From the NCBI RefSeq assembly GCF_943373825.1, contig NZ_CALSBP010000003.1, forward strand, positions 744,001 through 808,000: a stretch of 64,000 nucleotides of DNA, given 5' to 3'. Each line of letters begins with the position of its first letter. Position 1 is the first letter of the stretch. Of this stretch, positions 7,824 through 30,375 are shown in pieces. A model generated the notes under the pieces. It made no database searches. It worked only from the letters and a program-made list of their open reading frames with translations, and was not told the DNA's origin. Source of the stretch: Aquimarina spinulae. GTDB lineage: Bacteria; Bacteroidota; Bacteroidia; Flavobacteriales; Flavobacteriaceae. The position numbers and the translations under genes are program-made.

Positions 7824-8747
7824 TTATCCTGCAAGATCTATATTTTTAAGTTTATTTTCTTCTGCAGTTTTTGCTTTCTGAGCTGCGTATTCATAACCTT
7901 GTCTCCACCAGCTACTCATTAATTTTTTATTAAAAATCAATGAGTTCTCTGTAAGTTTGGATGGTGTGTAGTATAGATTTAAAGGAACTTCTTTATTAAT
8001 CGCTGCTAATTTACCTAATACAGTATCATGTCCTTCGACCTGGTCTAACATATAACTAAATAGGTTTACCATAAGTGAAAATGGGTTTTTACCCAATACT
8101 TTATTATGCTCCATATTTTCTGACTCCAAAATAATGGCATCAATCTCTGTTGCTCCTCTTCGTATCGCTTCCCGAATAGGTACCATACACCCAAAACCTC
8201 CATCTGCATATTCGCAACCATCTTTGGTAACCAAACTCATAAAAGGAACATAGTTACAGGATATCCAAACCCAATCACAGAAATCTTCATAAGAAAAATC
8301 ATTAATCGATTTATATTCTGTACTATTTTTAGTGAGGTTAGAAACGGTAACTACAACATCATCAACTTTTGTACGTGCCAGCTTAAATTCTTCTTCAGAA
8401 AAGTTTCTGCGTATAGCACGTCGTAAATTTTTACTTTCTCCGAATGTTCGTTTTCTTTTAATAAATTGCCACAGTGAAGAAAAAAAGTTAATCGATACAA
8501 ACTCTCTATTTCCTTTTTTTCTAACTACAAAAGGATTTACATTAAAAATTGTATGTTGGTTAACATTGGTATAGATATCATACATTTTCTCGATATTACC
8601 CAAAGCCAATTGTGAAATTAAAAGGCTTCCGGTAGAAGTCCCGAGAAACAGGTCATATTTCTTACCTTGCTCCTGAATTAAGTATTGCGCTACACCACCG
8701 GCATAAGCTCCTTTACTTCCTCCTCCTGAAATTACTAGTGCTCGCAT
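7824..8747 (-). CDS. Patatin-like phospholipase (second of tandem pair)
   Basis: About 307 residues, with the Ser-Asp dyad of patatin-like acyl hydrolases: oxyanion loop SGGGSKGAYAGG at the N-terminus, nucleophile elbow GTSTGS around residue 47, and the aspartate in YADGGFG near residue 180. No signal peptide is present, so the enzyme is expected in the cytoplasm. The family releases fatty acids from phospholipids or acylglycerols. A longer frame begins at 8783, but the ATG at 8747 is chosen: it puts the protein directly at MRALVISGGG as in the paralogue and leaves a single base after the upstream gene's stop codon. Confidence 0.9.
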   Translation of the reverse strand: MRALVISGGGSKGAYAGGVAQYLIQEQGKKYDLFLGTSTGSLLISQLALGNIEKMYDIYTNVNQHTIFNVNPFVVRKKGNREFVSINFFSSLWQFIKRKRTFGESKNLRRAIRRNFSEEEFKLARTKVDDVVVTVSNLTKNSTEYKSINDFSYEDFCDWVWISCNYVPFMSLVTKDGCEYADGGFGCMVPIREAIRRGATEIDAIILESENMEHNKVLGKNPFSLMVNLFSYMLDQVEGHDTVLGKLAAINKEVPLNLYYTPSKLTENSLIFNKKLMSSWWRQGYEYAAQKAKTAEENKLKNIDLAG

Positions 8748-8748
8748 A

Positions 8749-9642
8749 TTATAATGGGTTCGAAATGTTCTTTTTCTTTGCAAATTTATAACCTTTTGCC
8801 CACCATTGTGTCATTTTTTCCTTATCAAAAATTAATGAGTTCGTAGTCAGTACGGTAGGAGTATAATATAGATCCATTGCTACATCGTGTTCTATTGCCT
8901 TAAACTTACCTATCCGAATGTTTTGATGTTCGATCCTATCCATCATAAAATCGACCATACTTGTAATTAAGGTAAAGGGGTTTTTGGTAGGCATTCTATT
9001 TAAATAATTAATTTCTGTTTCCAACACAATAACATCGAGCTCTGTTGCTCCACGTTTTATTGCTTCTTCAATAGGAACCATCGATCCCAAACCACCATCA
9101 ACATAATCACAATGGTTTTTTCTAACCAAACTCATAAAAGGTGGGTAATTGCAAGATATCCATATCCAATCTAAAAAATCCTGATATGTACATTCTTTTA
9201 TTGATTTATATTCTACTTCATTAGTAGAAAGATTGGTTACTGTAATGACTATATCTTTTTCTCCAGATTTTAGTTCTTCAAAATATGATTCAGAAATAGC
9301 ACTCTCTACCAGATTTCTAAGGTTTTTACTATCTCCAAATGATTTTTTCCCTTTAATCAAATTATACAATACATTAAAATGATTGATATTGATACTTGTA
9401 TATCCTCTTTGCTTTTTAATAGTAAAAGGACAGCTTTTAAATATTGAAGATTGATTTACCGAGGTATAAAAAGTTTTTATCTCTTCGATTTTGGATAATG
9501 CCAGATGTGATACCAAAAGGCTTCCGGTAGAAGTACCAATAAACAGGTCATATTTTCTACCCAAATCCTGAATTAAGTACTGTGCAACACCACCTGCAAA
9601 AGCTCCTTTACTTCCACCACCAGAAATTACTAATGCACGCAT
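8749..9642 (-). CDS. Patatin-like phospholipase (first of tandem pair)
   Basis: A 297-residue paralogue of the next gene, aligned along its whole length, with the same N-terminus MRALVISGGGSKGA, the elbow GTSTGS and the dyad aspartate in YVDGGLG. It is cytoplasmic by lack of a signal peptide. It begins 8 bases after the M1 aminopeptidase stop and ends 1 base before the second patatin, so the three genes form one operon transcribed leftward. The pair arose by local duplication and has since diverged well outside the motifs. Confidence 0.9.
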   Translation of the reverse strand: MRALVISGGGSKGAFAGGVAQYLIQDLGRKYDLFIGTSTGSLLVSHLALSKIEEIKTFYTSVNQSSIFKSCPFTIKKQRGYTSININHFNVLYNLIKGKKSFGDSKNLRNLVESAISESYFEELKSGEKDIVITVTNLSTNEVEYKSIKECTYQDFLDWIWISCNYPPFMSLVRKNHCDYVDGGLGSMVPIEEAIKRGATELDVIVLETEINYLNRMPTKNPFTLITSMVDFMMDRIEHQNIRIGKFKAIEHDVAMDLYYTPTVLTTNSLIFDKEKMTQWWAKGYKFAKKKNISNPL

Positions 9643-18616: not shown

Positions 18617-21190
18617 TTATTTAATCATTATTTTTTCTGAAACACTTCGACTTCCATCAGATATTGTTATAAAATAAATACCCGATGTTATTCCCTCTAA
18701 AGAAATTTTGTTATCGGTTACTACTCCAGATTTTATTATGCTGCCTTGCATATTAGCTAATGTAAAACTACTGTCACGATTGTTTCTCAAGCTAATTTGA
18801 ATATAAGTTGTAGCTGGATTAGGGTATACTTTGGCCAAGAACACTTTATCTTCCTGTTCTAATTTTCTATCAACTTTTATTGATGATGCTCCTTTAGCTC
18901 CCATGGTTGACCCTATATTTACAGTATAATCTTCTACTTCTCCATATCCAAAAGTTTCACAAGATGTTGGTACTCCGTTCCATTTCATAGCAACTCGCAT
19001 TCGAGTATTTCCTAATACTGCTGTAGATGGTATATCAAAATTATATGATAGGTTGCTTGTCTCTGATGTAGATGCACTAACTACTTTTTCAGTCCCTTCA
19101 AAAGTTCCGTTTTTATTAAAATCAATCCATACCGCCCAATGTTCTGTATAAGATGCACTTGCAAACCCAACACTTAATATAATAGTATTAGCTCCATAGT
19201 TAAGATTTGCTACCTGAGCGGTAAAATCTCCATAACCGCCATTAGCTAATGTGGTGTTAGAGATCCCTCCTATTCCCACATAGTCAATATATTCATACTT
19301 TACAGTATTTCCTTTTGACGTACAATAGGAAACTACAGTATCAAGAGTAGTAACGGTTACGGTATTACTAGATGCGGAGGCATTTCCTGCTGCATCAAAT
19401 GCAGATATTTTAAATGAATAGTTCGTTCCTGCTGCCAAGCCAGATACATTATACGAAACTCCGGTAGTTGTCGTTAGTACTGCTCCATCTTGATAAATCG
19501 TATATCCTGTAACCCCAATATTATCGGTAGAGGCTGTCCAGGAAAGCTGTGTGCTATTTTCTGTGATATTAGCAACTGTTACATTGGTAGGGGTTGTAGG
19601 AGTTTCAGTATCTGAACCAGTATTACCTCCTCCATTGAATGTATGCTTTCCCAGGCCATCAAAGGTATTTTGGGGATATGACTCCCACTCAGATGTGTTA
19701 TATGTTGCAGATGGTGATGATACATCTGCTTTTCTTCTTAAAGTAGCATCCTTAGCAAAGTTAGACGATCCTCCATTAAAGGTTCCTATCACATCTATTA
19801 AAACTCCATCCTTAAATAAGCCTACGGGGTCATTACCATTAAAAGTCAATTCTGAAGCTCCCGAAACCAGATCTGCTTCATTTTTTATAGTATTCGAAGC
19901 CGAACTATTGGCAGCTACATAAACATCATTAGTAGCCAAAACACCAGAAAGGTTTAATCCTCCCGACCAAGATCCAGAGCCATTGGTTTGCCTTTTGATT
20001 GTATACCCTGAAAGATTAACCGATACGCCTGTATAGTTTGCTATTTCTAAAGCCTTATTATTTGAAGATCCTTCTATATACTCCGAAAAAAACAATGCCG
20101 TAGCATCACCACCAGGTGAAGTATTTTGAGTCGTAACATTAATCGTAGTACTAGCTGCAGATATATTACCTGCTGCATCTTTCGCTTTTACAGAAAATGA
20201 ATACGTAGTGTTAGCGGTTAATCCCGAAACGCTATAACTGTTCATTAATGAAGAACTTAAAAATGCTCCATTTCTATATACATCATATCCTGTTACACCA
20301 ACATTATCTGTTGATGCACTCCATGATAATACTGTAGATGTCTGAGTTGTATTTGTTGCTATGAGATTAGCAGGAATACTTGGTGCCTGCGTATCATTAC
20401 CTCCTGTATCCCCAAACCTGTCTTCGGCTTGAGGTCCTCCCCAAATCTGAGTAGCAAATGCAGGATTATCTATAAATGGGTTTCTGTTACCTTGTATATT
20501 TTCAAGAATTGGATTACGTTGTAATTCTAATGGCGAAACAGGATCCTCTGCATTCCATTCTAAAAATAATTGTAGCATATTACTATCACCAGTTGCTGCT
20601 GCCCCTACTCCAACATTCTTTGGCAAACAACGATTGTTATAGCGTATATACATATACATCATCATACGTGCTACATCTCCTTTCCATTCATCACCAGGAT
20701 ACCAATGTCCTTGAGAAGTAGGTCCAGAATTACCCGATCCATCTGCAAACTTTCTATTTCCTCTTGATGAATTGCGCTGTACATCTGATGGTCGTAAGTG
20801 ATGTGCATCTGCTCCTGGCCCTTGTGTTCCCAGATTCGGGTTACCCAATGATTTTGGATATACGTGCTCCCTGTTCCAGTCAGTAGATCCTCCCCCATTA
20901 TTATTTACTCCTCGTGTTCTATCTGTACTCGAATTTCCATCCGTATCACTATATCCATATACTAAAACAACTTTTGAAGGATCAGAAGGTTCTAAATCGG
21001 TCTGCTTTAATGCATCCCACACCCCTGGTGTATAACTAAGAAATGTGGTATGTGTATTTGTCACCTTATCACTTAATTCATTTTTTAAAGCAGTTCCTGA
21101 TAAGGTTAGGTTTACATCATTGTAATATGATGGTATCTGGCTATACCCCATAACAGGTATAAACAGAAGTAAGAGTATTATTTTTTTCAT
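18617..21190 (-). CDS. T9SS-secreted multidomain endonuclease I
   Basis: About 857 residues if started at MKKIILLLLFIPVMGYSQ (ATG at 21190); the frame extends to 21217, but the signal peptide argues for the later start. Order of domains: endonuclease I domain with NREHVYPKSLG (catalytic His) and DAHHLRPSD around residues 110-150; a fibronectin type III domain; a lamin-tail domain (LFFSEYIEGSSNNKALEI); a second fibronectin type III; a GEVED domain (WAVWIDFNKNG, GYGEVEDYTVNI); and a type A T9SS sorting domain (VYPNPATTYIQI). It is expected to be exported to the surface or medium, probably to degrade extracellular DNA or RNA for nutrients or biofilm turnover. Confidence 0.95.
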   Translation of the reverse strand: MKKIILLLLFIPVMGYSQIPSYYNDVNLTLSGTALKNELSDKVTNTHTTFLSYTPGVWDALKQTDLEPSDPSKVVLVYGYSDTDGNSSTDRTRGVNNNGGGSTDWNREHVYPKSLGNPNLGTQGPGADAHHLRPSDVQRNSSRGNRKFADGSGNSGPTSQGHWYPGDEWKGDVARMMMYMYIRYNNRCLPKNVGVGAAATGDSNMLQLFLEWNAEDPVSPLELQRNPILENIQGNRNPFIDNPAFATQIWGGPQAEDRFGDTGGNDTQAPSIPANLIATNTTQTSTVLSWSASTDNVGVTGYDVYRNGAFLSSSLMNSYSVSGLTANTTYSFSVKAKDAAGNISAASTTINVTTQNTSPGGDATALFFSEYIEGSSNNKALEIANYTGVSVNLSGYTIKRQTNGSGSWSGGLNLSGVLATNDVYVAANSSASNTIKNEADLVSGASELTFNGNDPVGLFKDGVLIDVIGTFNGGSSNFAKDATLRRKADVSSPSATYNTSEWESYPQNTFDGLGKHTFNGGGNTGSDTETPTTPTNVTVANITENSTQLSWTASTDNIGVTGYTIYQDGAVLTTTTGVSYNVSGLAAGTNYSFKISAFDAAGNASASSNTVTVTTLDTVVSYCTSKGNTVKYEYIDYVGIGGISNTTLANGGYGDFTAQVANLNYGANTIILSVGFASASYTEHWAVWIDFNKNGTFEGTEKVVSASTSETSNLSYNFDIPSTAVLGNTRMRVAMKWNGVPTSCETFGYGEVEDYTVNIGSTMGAKGASSIKVDRKLEQEDKVFLAKVYPNPATTYIQISLRNNRDSSFTLANMQGSIIKSGVVTDNKISLEGITSGIYFITISDGSRSVSEKIMIK

Positions 21191-21577
21191 TATGTTATAA
21201 GTTAGTTTATTAAGCATAATTACGTGATCTCGAATCTAAAATTATTTTGTTAGACTTACTATAGTAAAACGTTATCAAATAGTTACCTAGTATGTTGACA
21301 ATCCACTATTTACACAAAAAAACATATTCAAATCGCTACAATTCAATCAATTACTACCCCTAACGATTGTTAATAAGTTATTTCTTACAAAAAACAAGAG
21401 TGTCATTTACAACAAATTTCTGTAAAAAAACACAAAATCATAAACATGATTTTTGCTCATAATACTACTAATAGTCAATACTCTTAGCATTTTCTCTTAT
21501 AAAATTTTATTCTTTGAGTGATTTAATCCAAAGTCATAAACAAGATCAATACCTTACTTTTTTAGTGGTTTTCATGT
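21191..21577. other. Gene-free AT-rich spacer before the peptide array
   Basis: About 390 bases upstream of the first peptide gene and its conserved upstream block, and upstream of the divergent nuclease. I see no reading frame or structured RNA. It should contain the nuclease promoter. Confidence 0.5.
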
Positions 21578-21633: not shown

Positions 21634-21819
21634 ATGAAAAAAATCTTGAATGTTACAGGAGTTCAGAAGTTAAGTAAAGACCAACAACAAAATATTAAAG
21701 GAGCATGGGGGCGTGCAACTTGCTGCCCTAGTGGAAGAGGATGCCTTATTAGCTTTGGAAATCAAAGTTTTTGTGAGCCTGGTCGTTGTGACCGTTGGGG
21801 GCGTTGTATCTTTTTCTAA
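21634..21819 (+). CDS. Six-cysteine leader peptide A1 (bacteriocin/defensin-like)
   Basis: A 61-residue precursor. The leader, residues 1-23 (ends QKLSKDQQQNIKG), has the amphipathic helix plus terminal Gly expected of peptides cut by C39 peptidases of double-glycine type; the likely cut is near Gly23-Ala24. The core has six cysteines at 30, 31, 37, 47, 52 and 58 (CC-x5-C-x9-C-x4-C-x5-C), is net positive (about +3) and ends in IFF. The core is identical to that of A2. I do not recognise a named family beyond bacteriocin-like peptides of Bacteroidota. No transporter or modification gene lies in the window. Role unknown: antimicrobial or signal. Confidence 0.8.
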   Translation: MKKILNVTGVQKLSKDQQQNIKGAWGRATCCPSGRGCLISFGNQSFCEPGRCDRWGRCIFF

Positions 21820-21837
21820 GAAAATTCAAAACCATAC

Positions 21838-21868
21838 AAAAGGCAAACTTTCTGGTTTGCCTTTTTTT
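21838..21868 (+). terminator. Terminator of peptide gene A1
   Basis: AGGCAAAC (21841-21848) pairs with GTTTGCCT (21855-21862), flanked by AAA and a run of seven T. B1 must therefore have its own promoter. Confidence 0.85.
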
Positions 21869-21913
21869 GTGCTACATTTTTAATTAAAAACAATGTTATT
21901 TAACGTTTTAAAA

Positions 21914-21960
21914 AACTGACTCACACTATTTTAAAGTATATTTAAATACTAACTTAAATA
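21914..21960 (+). promoter_or_regulatory. Class 1 upstream element of peptide gene B1
   Basis: Copy of the block before A1: AACTGACTCACACTATTTTA, then ATTTAAA and TAACTTAAATATAT just before the start codon at 21969. Confidence 0.55.
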
Positions 21961-21968
21961 TATATATA

Positions 21969-22145
21969 ATGAAAACTATTTTAGAATTAACTGGTGTTCA
22001 AAAATTAAGTAAAGAACAACAACAACAAATTAAAGGAACATGGGGACGAGCCACCTGTTGCGGGCCAAAAAAGTGTCGTATTCCTGGAACAAGTTTTTGT
22101 GATTATGGATATTGCCGATCTAACGGAAGTTGTATGTGGGCATAA
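21969..22145 (+). CDS. Six-cysteine leader peptide B1
   Basis: A 58-residue peptide that a 60-residue ORF cutoff would miss. The translated leader is MKTILELTGV then QKLSKEQQQQIKG, followed by a core with cysteines at 30, 31, 36, 44, 49 and 55 (CC-x4-C-x7-C-x4-C-x5-C). The core ends FCDYGYC then SNGSCMWA, which defines the B type, in contrast to FCEPGRC..WG.C of the A type. Net charge is about +4. It sits between A1 and A2 and has its own upstream block. Existence as a gene is supported by the leader and cysteine pattern shared with four neighbours. Function unknown. Confidence 0.8.
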   Translation: MKTILELTGVQKLSKEQQQQIKGTWGRATCCGPKKCRIPGTSFCDYGYCRSNGSCMWA

Positions 22146-22329
22146 CCAAAATAACACTGTGTGAAAGTATTAAAAGATAATAGCGAATCTCTATGTTATT
22201 CTATTAAAAATAACCCAATTTATAAGTTGAAATTTATAAATCTCAAGAATATGGTGTTGTATTTTACTACATGATCCAATATTTTTAATGGAGAAAATCT
22301 GAATTATTAACTTTTAAAACTTTCACACA
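22146..22329 (+). repeat. Duplicated 184-base spacer, copy 1 (B1 to A2)
   Basis: This spacer and the one at 22836-23019 have exactly the same length, and the stretch from 22219 on is nearly identical (TATAAGTTGAAATTTATAAA, then CTCAAGAATATGGTGTTGTA). Each runs from a B-type stop codon to an A-type start codon, so a B-A unit was duplicated. Confidence 0.85.
22300..22329 (+). promoter_or_regulatory. Class 2 upstream element of peptide gene A2
   Basis: TGAATTATTAACTTTTAAAA then CTTTCACACA directly before the start codon. Similar blocks precede B2 (22614-22646) and A3 (22989-23019), but not A1 or B1. Confidence 0.5.
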
Positions 22330-22515
22330 ATGAAAAACATTTTGGAATTAACCGGTGTTCAAAAACTATCTAAACAACAACAACAAAATATTAAAGGAGC
22401 ATGGGGGCGTGCAACTTGCTGCCCTAGTGGAAGAGGATGTCTCATTAGCTTTGGAAATCAAAGTTTTTGTGAACCTGGTCGTTGTGACCGTTGGGGGCGT
22501 TGTATCTTTTTCTAA
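22330..22515 (+). CDS. Six-cysteine leader peptide A2
   Basis: A 61-residue precursor. The leader (MKNILELTGV, QKLSKQQQQNIKG) differs from A1 at four positions, but the 38-residue core is identical, with cysteines at 30, 31, 37, 47, 52 and 58. At the nucleotide level the cores differ only by a few synonymous changes, and identity runs on into the 3' flank (GAAAATTCAAAACCATAC), which points to recent duplication or gene conversion. It has its own class 2 upstream block and a terminator just downstream. Function unknown. Confidence 0.8.
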   Translation: MKNILELTGVQKLSKQQQQNIKGAWGRATCCPSGRGCLISFGNQSFCEPGRCDRWGRCIFF

Positions 22516-22535
22516 GAAAATTCAAAACCATACGT

Positions 22536-22567
22536 AAAGACAAACTTTTAGGTTTGTCATTTTTTTG
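22536..22567 (+). terminator. Terminator of peptide gene A2
   Basis: GACAAAC (22539-22545) pairs with GTTTGTC (22552-22558), and a T tract follows. It is homologous in position and sequence to the A1 terminator. Confidence 0.8.
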
Positions 22568-22613
22568 ATCATTACTAATTGGTTCTGGTAAAGCAGCATC
22601 ATTGTACTCAAAA

Positions 22614-22646
22614 TTGAATTATTAACTTTTTTAAATATTTTACAAA
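22614..22646 (+). promoter_or_regulatory. Class 2 upstream element of peptide gene B2
   Basis: TTGAATTATTAACTTTTTTA then AATATTTTACAAA before the ATG, the same block type as before A2 and A3. Confidence 0.5.
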
Positions 22647-22835
22647 ATGAAGAATATCTTAAATTTAACTGGAGTTCAAAAATTATCCAAAAAAGAGCAA
22701 CAAGACATCAAAGGTTCCTGGGGTCGCAGAGTATATTGTGGCGGACCAAAAAGATGTTGTTTCCGTCTTCCTAATGGAGCAGAATTTTGCGATTATGGAT
22801 ATTGTCAATCCAATGGAAACTGTATTTGGGCATAA
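22647..22835 (+). CDS. Six-cysteine leader peptide B2
   Basis: A 62-residue precursor with leader MKNILNLTGV, QKLSKKEQQDIKG and likely cleavage near Gly23-Ser24. Cysteines are at 31, 37, 38, 48, 53 and 59. The adjacent pair is now the second and third cysteine, not the first and second, so the N-terminal half of the core is rearranged while C-x4-C-x5-C at the end is kept. The ending FCDYGYC then SNGNCIWA places it with B1. Net charge is about +3. Function unknown. Confidence 0.8.
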   Translation: MKNILNLTGVQKLSKKEQQDIKGSWGRRVYCGGPKRCCFRLPNGAEFCDYGYCQSNGNCIWA

Positions 22836-23019
22836 CCAAAACAGTATTGGGTATCATCACTAAAAGATGATAGTGAATCTCCAATTATTACTCTTTTAAA
22901 ACAGTTTTTTATAAGTTGAAATTTATAAATCTCAAGAATATGGTGTTGTATTTCACTACATGATCCAATATTTTTAACAAGAGATAATCTCAATTATTAA
23001 CTTTTAAAACTTTCATACA
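22836..23019 (+). repeat. Duplicated 184-base spacer, copy 2 (B2 to A3)
   Basis: Second copy of the spacer at 22146-22329, same length, with near identity from 22908 onward up to and into the leader of A3. Confidence 0.85.
22989..23019 (+). promoter_or_regulatory. Class 2 upstream element of peptide gene A3
   Basis: TCAATTATTAACTTTTAAAA then CTTTCATACA immediately before the start codon, matching the A2 element at all but a few positions. Confidence 0.5.
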
Positions 23020-23202
23020 ATGAAAAACATTTTGGAATTAACTGGAGTTCAAAAACTATCCAAACAACAACAACGTAATATTAAAGGAGCTATGGCGAGC
23101 ATATCGTGTTGTGGACGTAACAAATGTCGAATTAGTTATCCTGGAGGAAGTTTTTGTGAACCAGGTAGATGTAACACATGGGGACAATGTATTTTATATT
23201 AA
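23020..23202 (+). CDS. Six-cysteine leader peptide A3
   Basis: A 60-residue precursor. The leader MKNILELTGV, QKLSKQQQRNIKG is close to A2. Cysteines are at 30, 31, 36, 46, 51 and 57 (CC-x4-C-x9-C-x4-C-x5-C). The core ends FCEPGRC then TWGQCILY, so it is A type. It alone lacks the WGR after the putative cleavage site, having AMASIS. Net charge is about +3. It is the last gene of the array and is followed by a strong terminator. Function unknown. Confidence 0.8.
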   Translation: MKNILELTGVQKLSKQQQRNIKGAMASISCCGRNKCRISYPGGSFCEPGRCNTWGQCILY

Positions 23203-24130: not shown

Positions 24131-24868
24131 TTATTTCTTAATAAACCTTTCCTTAAAATAATGAGAATAATTACTTCCCAATGGTAGCGTAATATCCCCT
24201 ATTTGTATTCTATTAGCATCTATTTTGTTAACGTGTTTTAAGTTTATCAGGTAGCTTTTATGGATTCGACAAAATTCAAACAAGGATAATTCTTTATCAA
24301 TTTTAGAGATCGTATTTCTAATAATTTTTATTTCTCCATCGGTAAGGAATAGCTTTAAATAATTACCATAAGATTGAATATACAGTAAAGATTCATATGT
24401 GATCTTATGAATAATCTTTCCTTCTTTTATACAAAAATAAGTCGAATTAGTACTAGCAGTATTAGTTTCTAAATTTTGAGAAGTTTCGTTTTTCTCTAGT
24501 GTAATCACTTTTTTCACTCGTTCTAAGGCCTTAACAAAACGAACAAATTTTATTGGTTTCAATAAATAATCTACCACTAAATCATAATTGTACGTTTCTA
24601 TAGCATAATCAGAATAAGCCGTAACCATTATCACTTTTATATCTTCTTTTTGAAGAGTATCTAATAACTCAATTCCAGAGATTTCTGGCATTTGTATATC
24701 CAAAAGAATAATATCTACCCGCTGTTTATTAATTTCGTTAAGTGCTTCTAAACCATTATAGCAGTTTCCTACTATTTTTATGTAATCTAGTTTATTACAA
24801 TAACTTTCTAATAAATTATGCGCGTAAGGCTCATCATCGATAATAAGTATGTTATAGATAGCATTCAT
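24131..24868 (-). CDS. LytTR family response regulator
   Basis: A 245-residue response regulator. The receiver domain has the acidic pair DD (11-12), phospho-acceptor Asp57 in IILLDIQMPE, Thr in MVTAYSD and Lys104 in YLLKPIKF. The C-terminal LytTR DNA-binding domain runs from about 140 (KIIHKITYESLLYIQSYGNY, then FCRIHKSYLINLKHV). LytTR regulators typically bind short direct repeats. Its gene overlaps the upstream kinase gene by four bases, so the two form a dedicated pair. In Firmicutes such pairs often sense peptides; here only proximity to the peptide array suggests that. Confidence 0.95.
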   Translation of the reverse strand: MNAIYNILIIDDEPYAHNLLESYCNKLDYIKIVGNCYNGLEALNEINKQRVDIILLDIQMPEISGIELLDTLQKEDIKVIMVTAYSDYAIETYNYDLVVDYLLKPIKFVRFVKALERVKKVITLEKNETSQNLETNTASTNSTYFCIKEGKIIHKITYESLLYIQSYGNYLKLFLTDGEIKIIRNTISKIDKELSLFEFCRIHKSYLINLKHVNKIDANRIQIGDITLPLGSNYSHYFKERFIKK

Positions 24869-25860
24869 AAGTTAATATTTAAATAAACGCGATAAGTTTT
24901 ATCCTTTTCTTCGATCATTAGTTCGTGCCTATCTGGGTAAATAAGTTGCAAACGCTTTATGGTATTTATTTGTCCGATATAATTTTTAGACACTTTTTGA
25001 TTTTTGAACAGACTATTTTCTATAATTAACTCAAGCTTAAATTGGTCATAAAACAGCTTAATATTTATAAAACTAGGAAGTGAGGTATGAGTTCCGTGTT
25101 TAAATGCATTTTCGACAAAAGGCAAAAGAAGAAGCGGTGCTATAGAAGTTTTAATATCTGTTTTAGGTCGCTTAAACTCTACCGAACAATTATCTCGTAA
25201 TCTCATCTTCTCTAATTCTATAAAAGCTTCTATTAACTGAATTTCTTTACGAACCGGAATTCTCTGAGCAGTTGAAAATTCTAAATGATATCTAAGCAAT
25301 TCAGCTAAGTTAATAAGCATTTCGGTACTTTTCTCTGAATCAACCTGATTAACACCGCAAATATTATTGATAGTATTAAACAAAAAATGAGGGTTGAGTT
25401 GAGCTTTCAATACATGGATTTCCATTTTCAGCTTATCTACCTGAAGTTTTTGGAGTTCTAATTGGCTTATAATACCTCTCTTTGCTATTCGAGACATTAT
25501 AACAATAAAGGTTATTATAAATATATTTTGGATCCATTGTCTAATATCTACTTCAGCTCCTTCACCGTATAAATAAGCACCAAAATATGCGGCACAATAT
25601 CCTATAATTATAGTAAGTGTAATAGCAACAATACTAAAATAGATATACTGTTTTTTAGGAAAAAAATAATCTTGAAAAAAGAACAGAAGATACGTTAGGA
25701 TAATAGAAGGGATAATAATCGTAGTTGTATCCAGAATCTTTTCTAGTATGTCTGTATTTTCTGAAGACCAAAAAGCAAAAATCACGAGTATAGCGAGCAC
25801 CCAAATTAAACAGTGATAATACCATCGCTTTTTTAGTATTTTTTCTACCATTTTCATCAA
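24865..25860 (-). CDS. LytS-type sensor histidine kinase
   Basis: A 331-residue membrane kinase of the His_kinase (LytS/YehU-like) family. About four transmembrane segments occupy the first 130 residues (YHCLIWVLAILVIFAFW, IIPSIILTYLLFFF, YFSIVAITLTIIIGYCAAYF, NIFIITFIVIMS). The dimerisation and phospho-acceptor motif is LKAQLNPHFLFNTINN near residue 157. The ATPase domain has the N-box PFVENAFKHG. No separate extracellular sensor domain is present, so the signal is likely sensed in or near the membrane. Its last four bases overlap the response regulator start. Confidence 0.94.
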   Translation of the reverse strand: MMKMVEKILKKRWYYHCLIWVLAILVIFAFWSSENTDILEKILDTTTIIIPSIILTYLLFFFQDYFFPKKQYIYFSIVAITLTIIIGYCAAYFGAYLYGEGAEVDIRQWIQNIFIITFIVIMSRIAKRGIISQLELQKLQVDKLKMEIHVLKAQLNPHFLFNTINNICGVNQVDSEKSTEMLINLAELLRYHLEFSTAQRIPVRKEIQLIEAFIELEKMRLRDNCSVEFKRPKTDIKTSIAPLLLLPFVENAFKHGTHTSLPSFINIKLFYDQFKLELIIENSLFKNQKVSKNYIGQINTIKRLQLIYPDRHELMIEEKDKTYRVYLNINL

Positions 25861-28977: not shown

Positions 28978-30375
28978 ATGACACAAAGCATCAATTCATC
29001 AAACATTACGCCTATTACGATTTCTAATAATCTATTTATGTGCGGTACAGATCAGTGGGCACCTAAAGGAGTTTGCTACCAACCTACAGATTTTGTAGAT
29101 CCAATTTCAGACAATAATCTAACTACAATTCAAGATTTATTGAAAGCTACAACAACTTATGGGTTCACTAATATGAAAATAAACGCCATTCGTGTGTATC
29201 AAGTTGATCCAACAAAAGATCACACACAAGTAATGAATGCCCTGGCTGCTGCAGGAATTTATGTGTTAGTAGGAGCTGTGGATCATACCACAGTACATGA
29301 CGGTCCTACAATTTATAATGCCAGGCTGAAGGCGGTTGCTGATGAATTCAGTAAATACCAGAATGTTCTGGGGTTTTCAATAGGAAACGAAACAATTGAT
29401 CCTGGTACAGGAGGTCAAAATCCAGGTTATGATATTCCAAACAAAATTAGAGCCGGAGCCAAATACTTGAAAGCCTATATGGCAAAAAGCAGCCCTCGTG
29501 TTGTTCCTGTTACAGCGGCACTTCGTGATGATCCTGATTTCACTATACCAGCAGCTAAGGCATATATGTGTGGGGATTCTTCTGAGCGTCTTGATTTCTT
29601 GGGTTACAATTGTGAGCGATGGGCAGGAGGAACACTTGCAGCAAAAGTTGGTGCTTACTATACTTTAACAAAAGCATTTGAAGGTACCAACCCTGTACCG
29701 ATAACTTTTACCGAAATGGGGTCAAACCCCAGGGCTGTCTCTCCAAGAACTTGGAAACAAGTTGATTATTTGTATGGAGGTACGAAACTCACTCCGCAAT
29801 CGGGATCGGGTTCGCCAATAAATATGGCAGATGTCGTTTCGGGTGGCTTTGCATTTAGATATTACGAACGAAATGCGGGATGGGGAATGCTCACAACAAG
29901 CGGTGACGAAATTCCTGGTCATGGTGCAAATTCGATAATTACCGAATATTCTAAAATAACATCTTTTAGTAGTACAGGAAATACAATGGGAACTGCTCCT
30001 TGTGATCAAAATAACCCATATGTAAAAGGATCTGCTATTCCATCATCAGGATTACCAACAGCTGTAAAAGTAACATTAACAAATTCTATTACAACGCCTC
30101 CTTCAGGAAGAAATATTAAATTTAATTATACTTCGAATTTGAATGCTGCTAATCCGACTTGGATAGAAGCGGTTGCGATTAAAGCCAATGGCCCAAAAAC
30201 AACATTCACTTTTCCTAAAGGGACAAATGGGATTTCAATGATATATGAAGTTGATTCTAAATGGAATCAAGGCTGTCAATTAAAAGGACAAGCTTTACTT
30301 CAACTCGCAGATGGAGATACTATCGAAGGTAATTGGATGAGTCCGGATGGTAATGGAAATTGTAAGATTAGCTAA
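28978..30375 (+). CDS. GH72-like beta-1,3-glucanosyltransferase
   Basis: A 465-residue glycoside hydrolase resembling the fungal Gas/Gel family (GH72), which cuts and re-joins beta-1,3-glucan. Matching landmarks in order: APKGVCYQPTDFVDPIS, INAIRVYQVDPTKDH, AAAGIYVLVGAVD, then the acid/base Glu138 in FSIGNETID, MCGDSSERLDFLGYNCERW, and nucleophile Glu246 in ITFTEMGSNPRAV. A C-terminal beta-rich domain (from about 360) may bind carbohydrate. No signal peptide is visible, which is odd for a wall-active enzyme. The gene is less AT-rich than its neighbours and stands alone, suggesting horizontal transfer. Confidence 0.8.
   Translation: MTQSINSSNITPITISNNLFMCGTDQWAPKGVCYQPTDFVDPISDNNLTTIQDLLKATTTYGFTNMKINAIRVYQVDPTKDHTQVMNALAAAGIYVLVGAVDHTTVHDGPTIYNARLKAVADEFSKYQNVLGFSIGNETIDPGTGGQNPGYDIPNKIRAGAKYLKAYMAKSSPRVVPVTAALRDDPDFTIPAAKAYMCGDSSERLDFLGYNCERWAGGTLAAKVGAYYTLTKAFEGTNPVPITFTEMGSNPRAVSPRTWKQVDYLYGGTKLTPQSGSGSPINMADVVSGGFAFRYYERNAGWGMLTTSGDEIPGHGANSIITEYSKITSFSSTGNTMGTAPCDQNNPYVKGSAIPSSGLPTAVKVTLTNSITTPPSGRNIKFNYTSNLNAANPTWIEAVAIKANGPKTTFTFPKGTNGISMIYEVDSKWNQGCQLKGQALLQLADGDTIEGNWMSPDGNGNCKIS

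Follow-up and report, generated by a model that had tools for sequence, protein, structure and literature searches.

A tandem array of six-cysteine leader peptides in Aquimarina spinulae and its place in a genome-wide repertoire

Introduction

What do five short cysteine-rich genes standing in tandem in Aquimarina spinulae encode, and does the order of their two kinds carry a meaning? The genes span positions 21634–23202 (+) of the window, the 64,000-nucleotide stretch of contig NZ_CALSBP010000003.1 analyzed here. An initial annotation had described them as a strictly alternating A-B-A-B-A array, in which A and B may act as a two-peptide pair. Animals, plants and fungi are the best-known sources of disulfide-rich peptides, and few bacterial ones with a dedicated oxidase are known. 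Our analysis places the array, as a single locus, in a repertoire of about 60 genes with a common leader and many cysteine frameworks. The explanation that we favor, and hold to be slightly on the probable side, is that the products are secreted disulfide peptides, exported by a C39 peptidase-ABC transporter (C39-ABC), oxidized by a VKOR-thioredoxin protein and used in antagonism, and that the array grew by duplication. Positions outside the window are given by contig (C1 to C3) of the same genome (G000); other loci and genomes carry L and G numbers.

Structure of the array

All five open reading frames (ORFs) are present where the initial annotation had placed them, and each codes for 58–62 residues with exactly six cysteines. 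A1 (21634–21819, +; 61 residues) and A3 (23020–23202, +; 60 residues) have the cysteine framework CC-C-C-C-C and a CEPG tail, while A2 (22330–22515, +; 61 residues) repeats the A1 core (AWGRATCC...GRCIFF) as protein, the two cores being 98% identical as DNA. B2 (22647–22835, +; 62 residues) has the framework C-CC-C-C-C and a CDYG tail. The remaining gene, B1 (21969–22145, +; 58 residues), also called h here, joins an A-type cysteine framework to a B-type (CDYG) C-terminal half. A leader of 23 residues (residues 1–23) is common to all five, with 24 invariant columns in the five-protein alignment; its form is MKxIL..TGVQKLSK.[QE]Q..IKG, then A, S or T. The shared leader stands as annotated, with a corrected spacing: two residues, not three, separate QQ or EQ from IKG.

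The cores (residue 24 onward) are 35–39 residues long, with a net charge of +3 to +4. Across 77 unique six-cysteine members of the family, the core is positively charged in 74 and the leader ends in G-A/S/T in 74 (GA or GS in 69, GT in five including h, other endings in three). Leaders of C39-exported class II-like peptides end in G-[GAS] before the core. Leader ends of this type and C39-ABC transporters both occur in this genome, and cleavage is predicted. Together with cysteine parity (below), these features agree with the annotated view of disulfide-compatible, leader-bearing, cationic and probably C39-processed peptides. We infer that the array genes code for precursors from which small peptides, with three predicted disulfides each, are secreted.

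The alternation proved to be a matter of tails. The motifs FCEPGRC (A) and FCDYGYC (B) do alternate along the array, but B1 and B2 differ in core type: the framework of B1 is CC-x4-C-x7-C-x4-C-x5-C, as in A, against C-x5-CC-x9-C-x4-C-x5-C in B2, and the order by framework is A-h-A-B-A. The C-terminal half of B1 is 83% identical to that of B2 as DNA, but its N-terminal core is only 60–67% identical to that of the four other array genes. Simple arithmetic shows that, when three A and two B genes are placed at random, one arrangement in ten alternates strictly.

The intergenic stretches h-A2 and B2-A3 are 84% identical, and each holds a copy of a 70-nucleotide element (family D5), at 22219–22288 (+; between B1 and A2) and 22908–22977 (+; between B2 and A3). 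The copies are spaced 689 nucleotides and are 99% identical, more alike than the neighboring repeat. The element reads TTTATAAGTTGAAATTTATAAAT..CAAGAATATGG.GTTGTATT and is kept in relatives (L001–L006, L011:10589 and L021:9714); it is perhaps a shared promoter or regulatory site. Terminator-like hairpins follow A1 (21838–21865, +) and A2 (22539–22558, +), the search having given three terminator-like sites (one is the opposite strand of the A1 hairpin) against a mean of 0.8 in shuffled sequence (standard deviation 1.0). Because of these two hairpins, the layout suggests the transcription units A1, B1-A2 and B2-A3. A further hairpin with a T run after A3 was judged by eye only.

Most simply, a B-type gene and the A-type gene after it would have been duplicated together as a unit, and the alternation would then be a by-product. 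Tandem duplication of the B+A unit, plus gene conversion and half-swapping, would account for the growth of the array, which illustrates how such repertoires may expand.

Synteny and selection in relatives

Relatives were sought by a locus scan of one genome per species (84,980 species) with a single query, which reaches close relatives only. It returned 23 loci, of which 21 bear the label Aquimarina, and related arrays, which the initial annotation had proposed to look for, are found there as syntenic loci. The marker is the divergent neighbor of the array, an endonuclease I gene (18617–21217, −) with Fn3, lamin-tail, GEVED and T9SS sorting domains by Pfam. Its homologue adjoins the array in 21/23 fetched loci, and ackA and pta come after the array in 14/23. 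These shared neighbors mark the site as an old fixed locus.

Gene content and order vary within this locus. Both A and B/h genes occur in 18 of the 21 syntenic loci and only A genes in three (L010, L014 and L016). Among the 15 relative arrays with at least three genes, a count that omits a frameshifted A copy in L011 and a leaderless remnant in L006, five alternate (L002, L005, L006, L009 and L013) and ten do not; L015, for instance, reads AABBB and L010 reads AAA. The five proteins of L002 equal those of the window save for one residue in B1, hence L002 is not independent and the count without it is 4/14. Strict alternation as a functional code was rejected on these numbers. The decayed copies (L011:10287–10488, with a shifted start run, and L006:11132–11254, with the leader lost) suggest gene turnover.

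The same loci bear on the idea that A and B form an obligate two-peptide toxin of class IIb type. The hairpins speak for it by suggesting co-transcription of B1 with A2 and of B2 with A3, as does the presence of both kinds in 18/21 loci. Class IIb peptides are defined as always encoded together, however, and three loci hold A alone; order is not kept (5/15), all six Tenacibaculum-named proteins examined are B-type, and B1 itself has the A-type framework. Gallocin A, a two-peptide class IIb bacteriocin (PMC10100652), shares with the array, in the part of its description considered here, paired peptides and intramolecular disulfides, but the array lacks fixed pairing and no immunity gene was found next to it. 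We consider obligate pairing quite unlikely, and the two-peptide pair suggested in the initial annotation finds no support here.

Farther afield, a search of 5.8 billion proteins gave 174 candidates, 118 of them at E ≤ 0.01. Named matches were from Aquimarina and some Tenacibaculum, with a few UniRef entries called 'Bacteriocin' or 'Natural product'; 26 proteins were fetched, among them the six Tenacibaculum sequences. In 299 sampled genomes of the taxonomic family, ten had a match at E ≤ 1e-6, two of these in the genus.

The A-type core (18 unique proteins, one of which, L020, is from another locus) has a mean identity of 0.81 and a dN/dS of 0.06, and its leader 0.68 and 0.16; the B-type core (11 unique proteins) has 0.71 and 0.16, and its leader 0.72 and 0.12. 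These dN/dS values are rough, with synonymous sites near saturation in the whole sets; close pairs only give pN/pS values of 0.20 for the A core and 0.31 for its leader, and of 0.33 for the B core and 0.24 for its leader. Because the genes recur at a syntenic locus with dN/dS of 0.06–0.16, they are not chance ORFs. As judged from these substitution patterns, the array genes are real and subject to purifying selection; the A cores, above all, are not of the fast-evolving kind.

A genome-wide leader repertoire

With a profile built from 28 proteins that share the leader, 61 matches were obtained in the window's genome (E ≤ 0.01), in genes mostly of 45–71 codons that are scattered over the genome. 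Two were set aside as lacking cysteine. One is a repeat protein without cysteines; the other is a misreading of five residues at C3:720222, a site that read another way yields a four-cysteine core. The cysteine number is even in 55 of the 59 members with any cysteine (read as ORFs). It is also even in 116 of 119 non-redundant cores from the loci fetched by then, and in 43 of the 46 clusters into which cores fall, with 15 cysteine patterns. After removal of the A and B frameworks, 26 clusters are even and three odd (p = 1.5e-5); these members share descent, and the number of cysteines is partly selected for since the profiles were built partly from six-cysteine proteins, while parity itself is not directly selected by them. 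Even numbers at this frequency (55/59 members, 43/46 clusters) are compatible with paired cysteines. A superfamily profile run on 249 sampled family genomes, in which up to 25 candidates per genome were scored and copy numbers are thus lower bounds, matched 27 at E ≤ 1e-4, two of them in the genus; one genome outside it (G252) has at least 22 matches.

Seven paralogues (C1:884478, C1:884764 (L058), C1:483263 (L061) and those in C2:3441988–3443643 (L057)) have the pattern C-C-CC-C-C, which we take to be the order of cystine-knot peptides. Three of the seven have matches to animal toxin families in Pfam (E 3.5e-4 to 0.37). These matches, and the host association of the genus Aquimarina, raise the possibility that the peptides act on eukaryotes (algae, protists or invertebrate hosts) as defensin- or knottin-like effectors. 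The matches lie below the curated cut-offs, though, and the other four paralogues have none; the five array members match no Pfam family. AlphaFold models of A2 (pLDDT 69) and B2 (pLDDT 72) are of moderate quality with small beta-strand cores, and no match to a solved fold was obtained for either. A PDB sequence search gave weak matches for the alignment 'A2' (best E 0.057 to an insulin-like growth factor, and 0.19 to a putative late nodulin) and none for the alignment 'A5'. We regard eukaryotic targets as unlikely.

Conotoxin precursors likewise place one conserved leader before many cysteine frameworks in a multigene repertoire. The parallel is an analogy only: organism, leader and export route are other, and no homology was shown. 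Somewhat short of even confidence, we propose that Aquimarina has a counterpart of a venom repertoire, with about 60 disulfide-rich cores behind one leader in the window's species and 15 patterns, some of them knottin-like, among the clusters. The genes would lie dispersed in the genome, and their products would all pass through one C39-ABC/VKOR-thioredoxin pathway instead of each peptide having a cluster of its own. Such a repertoire would offer a large number of small cores that are probably stable. Because the genes are short and scattered, mining strategies that rely on clusters with maturation enzymes would tend to overlook them.

Comparison with known families

The five array members all stay below the Pfam and NCBIfam cut-offs, in line with the initial annotation, which knew of no named family with this pattern, and A2 and B2, the two tried, have no PADLOC match. 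The nearest model is NF047798 (leader_Chryseo), with 8.3–14.3 bits for the window members against a cut-off of 23.5; over 57 family members it is the best NCBIfam match (29/57, best E 9.3e-4). A likeness to NF047792 (CCPGW) appears in 2/28 repertoire members (best E 9.5e-5). Both models describe the same kind of leader, and their names imply bacteriocin-like secreted peptides; we know of no tested function for either family. The kind of leader is thereby already known, an NCBI 'bacteriocin-like' leader model being the nearest. In the open-licence PMC literature (mostly titles and abstract starts), no paper identifiable as describing these peptides was found, and neither the six-cysteine A/B frameworks nor a repertoire of this size nor the reading of a shared exporter and oxidase was seen there.

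Among Pfam matches that many members share, the best is PF14406 (Bacteroid_pep; 9/57 family members, best E 0.018). The five window members match neither it nor any lant_leader model at E 10 or below. The style of leader is like that of PF14406 and class I lanthipeptides, and the product could be imagined to be a lanthipeptide, a graspetide or another modified peptide: lanthipeptide leader models show weak likeness to 4/57 and 3/57 family members (best E 0.34 and 0.046), a grasp-with-spasm model to 2/57 (best E 0.019), and elsewhere in the genome there are a LanB cluster and a LanC-like gene. No maturase was found, however, among six window neighbors nor between array and ackA in 11/14 relatives, the flanks that were scanned; even cysteine numbers fit disulfides, and an oxidase co-occurs with the family (below). 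A lanthipeptide was rejected, with no lanthionine enzyme found in the scanned flanks of the array; a LanB of this genome lies in C2:2211000–2231000. Modified peptides in general seem to us very improbable.

Bacteroidetocins A and B offer a comparison in style. In the sections of the source considered here, they are described with 15-residue GG leaders, four cysteines, mature peptides of 42 residues and a compact four-gene region (PMC6671954), and their class IIf is defined by a GG leader of 15–16 residues and at least two, typically four, cysteines (PMC6671954). The peptides here differ in having a 23-residue leader whose final G precedes A, S or T, where bacteroidetocins have GG. All five have six cysteines; the class asks for two or more, and bacteroidetocins A and B have four. 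Their candidate machinery is remote and their cores number in the dozens. As far as those sections go, bacteroidetocins have no obvious immunity gene either (PMC6671954).

Candidate exporter and oxidase

A search for a C39-ABC transporter elsewhere in the genome, as the initial annotation had suggested, was successful: three are over the cut-off. One, in L041 (same contig, about 72 kb from the array), adjoins a HlyD gene with a LanC-like gene a few kb away; it was rejected as exporter, its orthologue (≥70% identity) occurring in 10/52 genomes with no association with the family (p = 0.18). A second, in L044, was rejected on its location inside a LanB cluster. The third, at C2:404873 (L045), is followed by a HlyD gene and keeps DCG..C, presumably the catalytic motif; no leader peptide was found in its 20-kb locus. 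The candidate oxidase, at C2:3439919–3441505 (L057:7917–9506), is a fusion of a C39-like part, VKOR and thioredoxin, and seven repertoire peptides surround it.

Presence across 52 genomes of the genus was scored for the family by the 'A2' profile (E ≤ 1e-5) and for the L045 orthologue at ≥83% identity. The orthologue is present in 41 genomes; the family occurs in 40 of these and in 2 of the 11 others, there as weak matches (p = 1.4e-7), and at E ≤ 1e-10 in 39/41 and 0/11. The VKOR gene was counted present in 42 genomes (39 at ≥47% identity, and G016, G022 and G060 with only a 31–34% paralogue beside the transporter), with the family in 41 of these against 1 of 10 without it (p = 2.7e-8). The 46 genomes at least 90% complete give the same table for both genes (39, 1, 0 and 6; p = 7.5e-7). 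None of these p values is corrected for the tree, and shared descent may inflate them.

Linkage in relatives adds to the co-occurrence, in loci that were fetched because the matches lay close together. VKOR, C39-ABC and HlyD matches are adjacent, 7–433 bp apart, in L098–L103, L105 and L106 (8/41 genomes), and in L107 a divergent VKOR lies 2.7 kb from the C39 orthologue. L104 has paralogues of C39-ABC and VKOR near four-cysteine leader peptides. In L096 a 46% C39-ABC homologue is followed by two six-cysteine peptides, one of them B-like, and in L097 VKOR adjoins three six-cysteine peptides. This linkage ties leader family, exporter and oxidase together.

Beyond the possible inflation of the p values, several observations weigh against this assignment. 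The C39-like part of the VKOR fusion is degenerate and without the DCG motif. In the window's genome the array, the C39-ABC gene and the VKOR gene lie far apart from one another. Of the 41 genomes with the C39 orthologue, only 9 carry a VKOR homologue at a distance of 3 kb or less from it. G062 has both machinery genes and no family match. G002 and G012 (VKOR matches of 23–27%) were scored VKOR-negative although they pass E ≤ 1e-20, as 44/52 genomes do. Four genomes scored as transporter-negative (G002, G004, G006 and G012) have homologues of 67–74% identity, partial in G004; we read this copy as a paralogue, because G056 and G010 hold both such a copy and the L045 orthologue.

Two of the loci hold matter of their own. 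L044 (C2:2211000–2231000) combines its LanB cluster and C39-ABC with a VKOR homologue and GG peptides, and L041 (C3:685000–705000) has the LanC-like gene near another C39-ABC. They are separate peptide systems in the same genome.

Proposed function

In the mechanism that we propose from these sequence comparisons, the leader would dock on the C39-ABC transporter at C2:404873, beside its HlyD adaptor, and would be removed by a cut after G-A/S/T in the course of export. The membrane VKOR-thioredoxin oxidase at C2:3439919 would then form three disulfides, and the oxidized peptide would be released. Released peptides may antagonize competing microbes in surface communities, in the manner of bacteriocins or defensins. 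Antagonism is the likeliest role, and our first choice because of the size, charge and multiplicity of the peptides and their likeness in style to bacteroidetocins. A common leader with a candidate shared exporter and oxidase makes this a testable pathway of export and folding.

The array itself supplies points against this explanation. A fast-evolving toxin would not usually have a core as strongly conserved as that of A, no transport, modification or immunity gene was found among the six window neighbors that were scanned, and 11/14 relatives have no ORF of at least 40 residues between the array and ackA. The moderate quality of the A2 and B2 models, which gave no match to a known fold, counts in the same direction. 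The purifying selection on the A core and that empty interval, which leaves no room for an immunity gene there, are what the main rival would predict: conserved A and B peptides secreted as signals, pheromone-like cues to the producer or its kin in the manner of ComC. A LytTR response regulator and a histidine kinase (24131–25860) near the array in the window would fit as well. This pair, though, recurs in only 1/23 fetched loci (L002; L003 ends too soon to show it), and a conserved quorum-sensing link to it was rejected on that count. Six-cysteine cores and about 60 divergent paralogues in one genome also exceed what signaling needs. We consider signaling improbable, if less so than the eukaryotic targets discussed above, and antagonism of microbes stays the preferred role.

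Other genes of the window

Two genes or gene pairs elsewhere in the window deserve mention. The gene at 28978–30375 strongly matches GH72 (PF03198, E 6.5e-43), a glucanosyltransferase family that is mainly fungal. Two adjacent, similar proteins at 7824–9642, in which GGGSKGA and GTSTGS motifs were recognized by eye, are presumably patatin-like.

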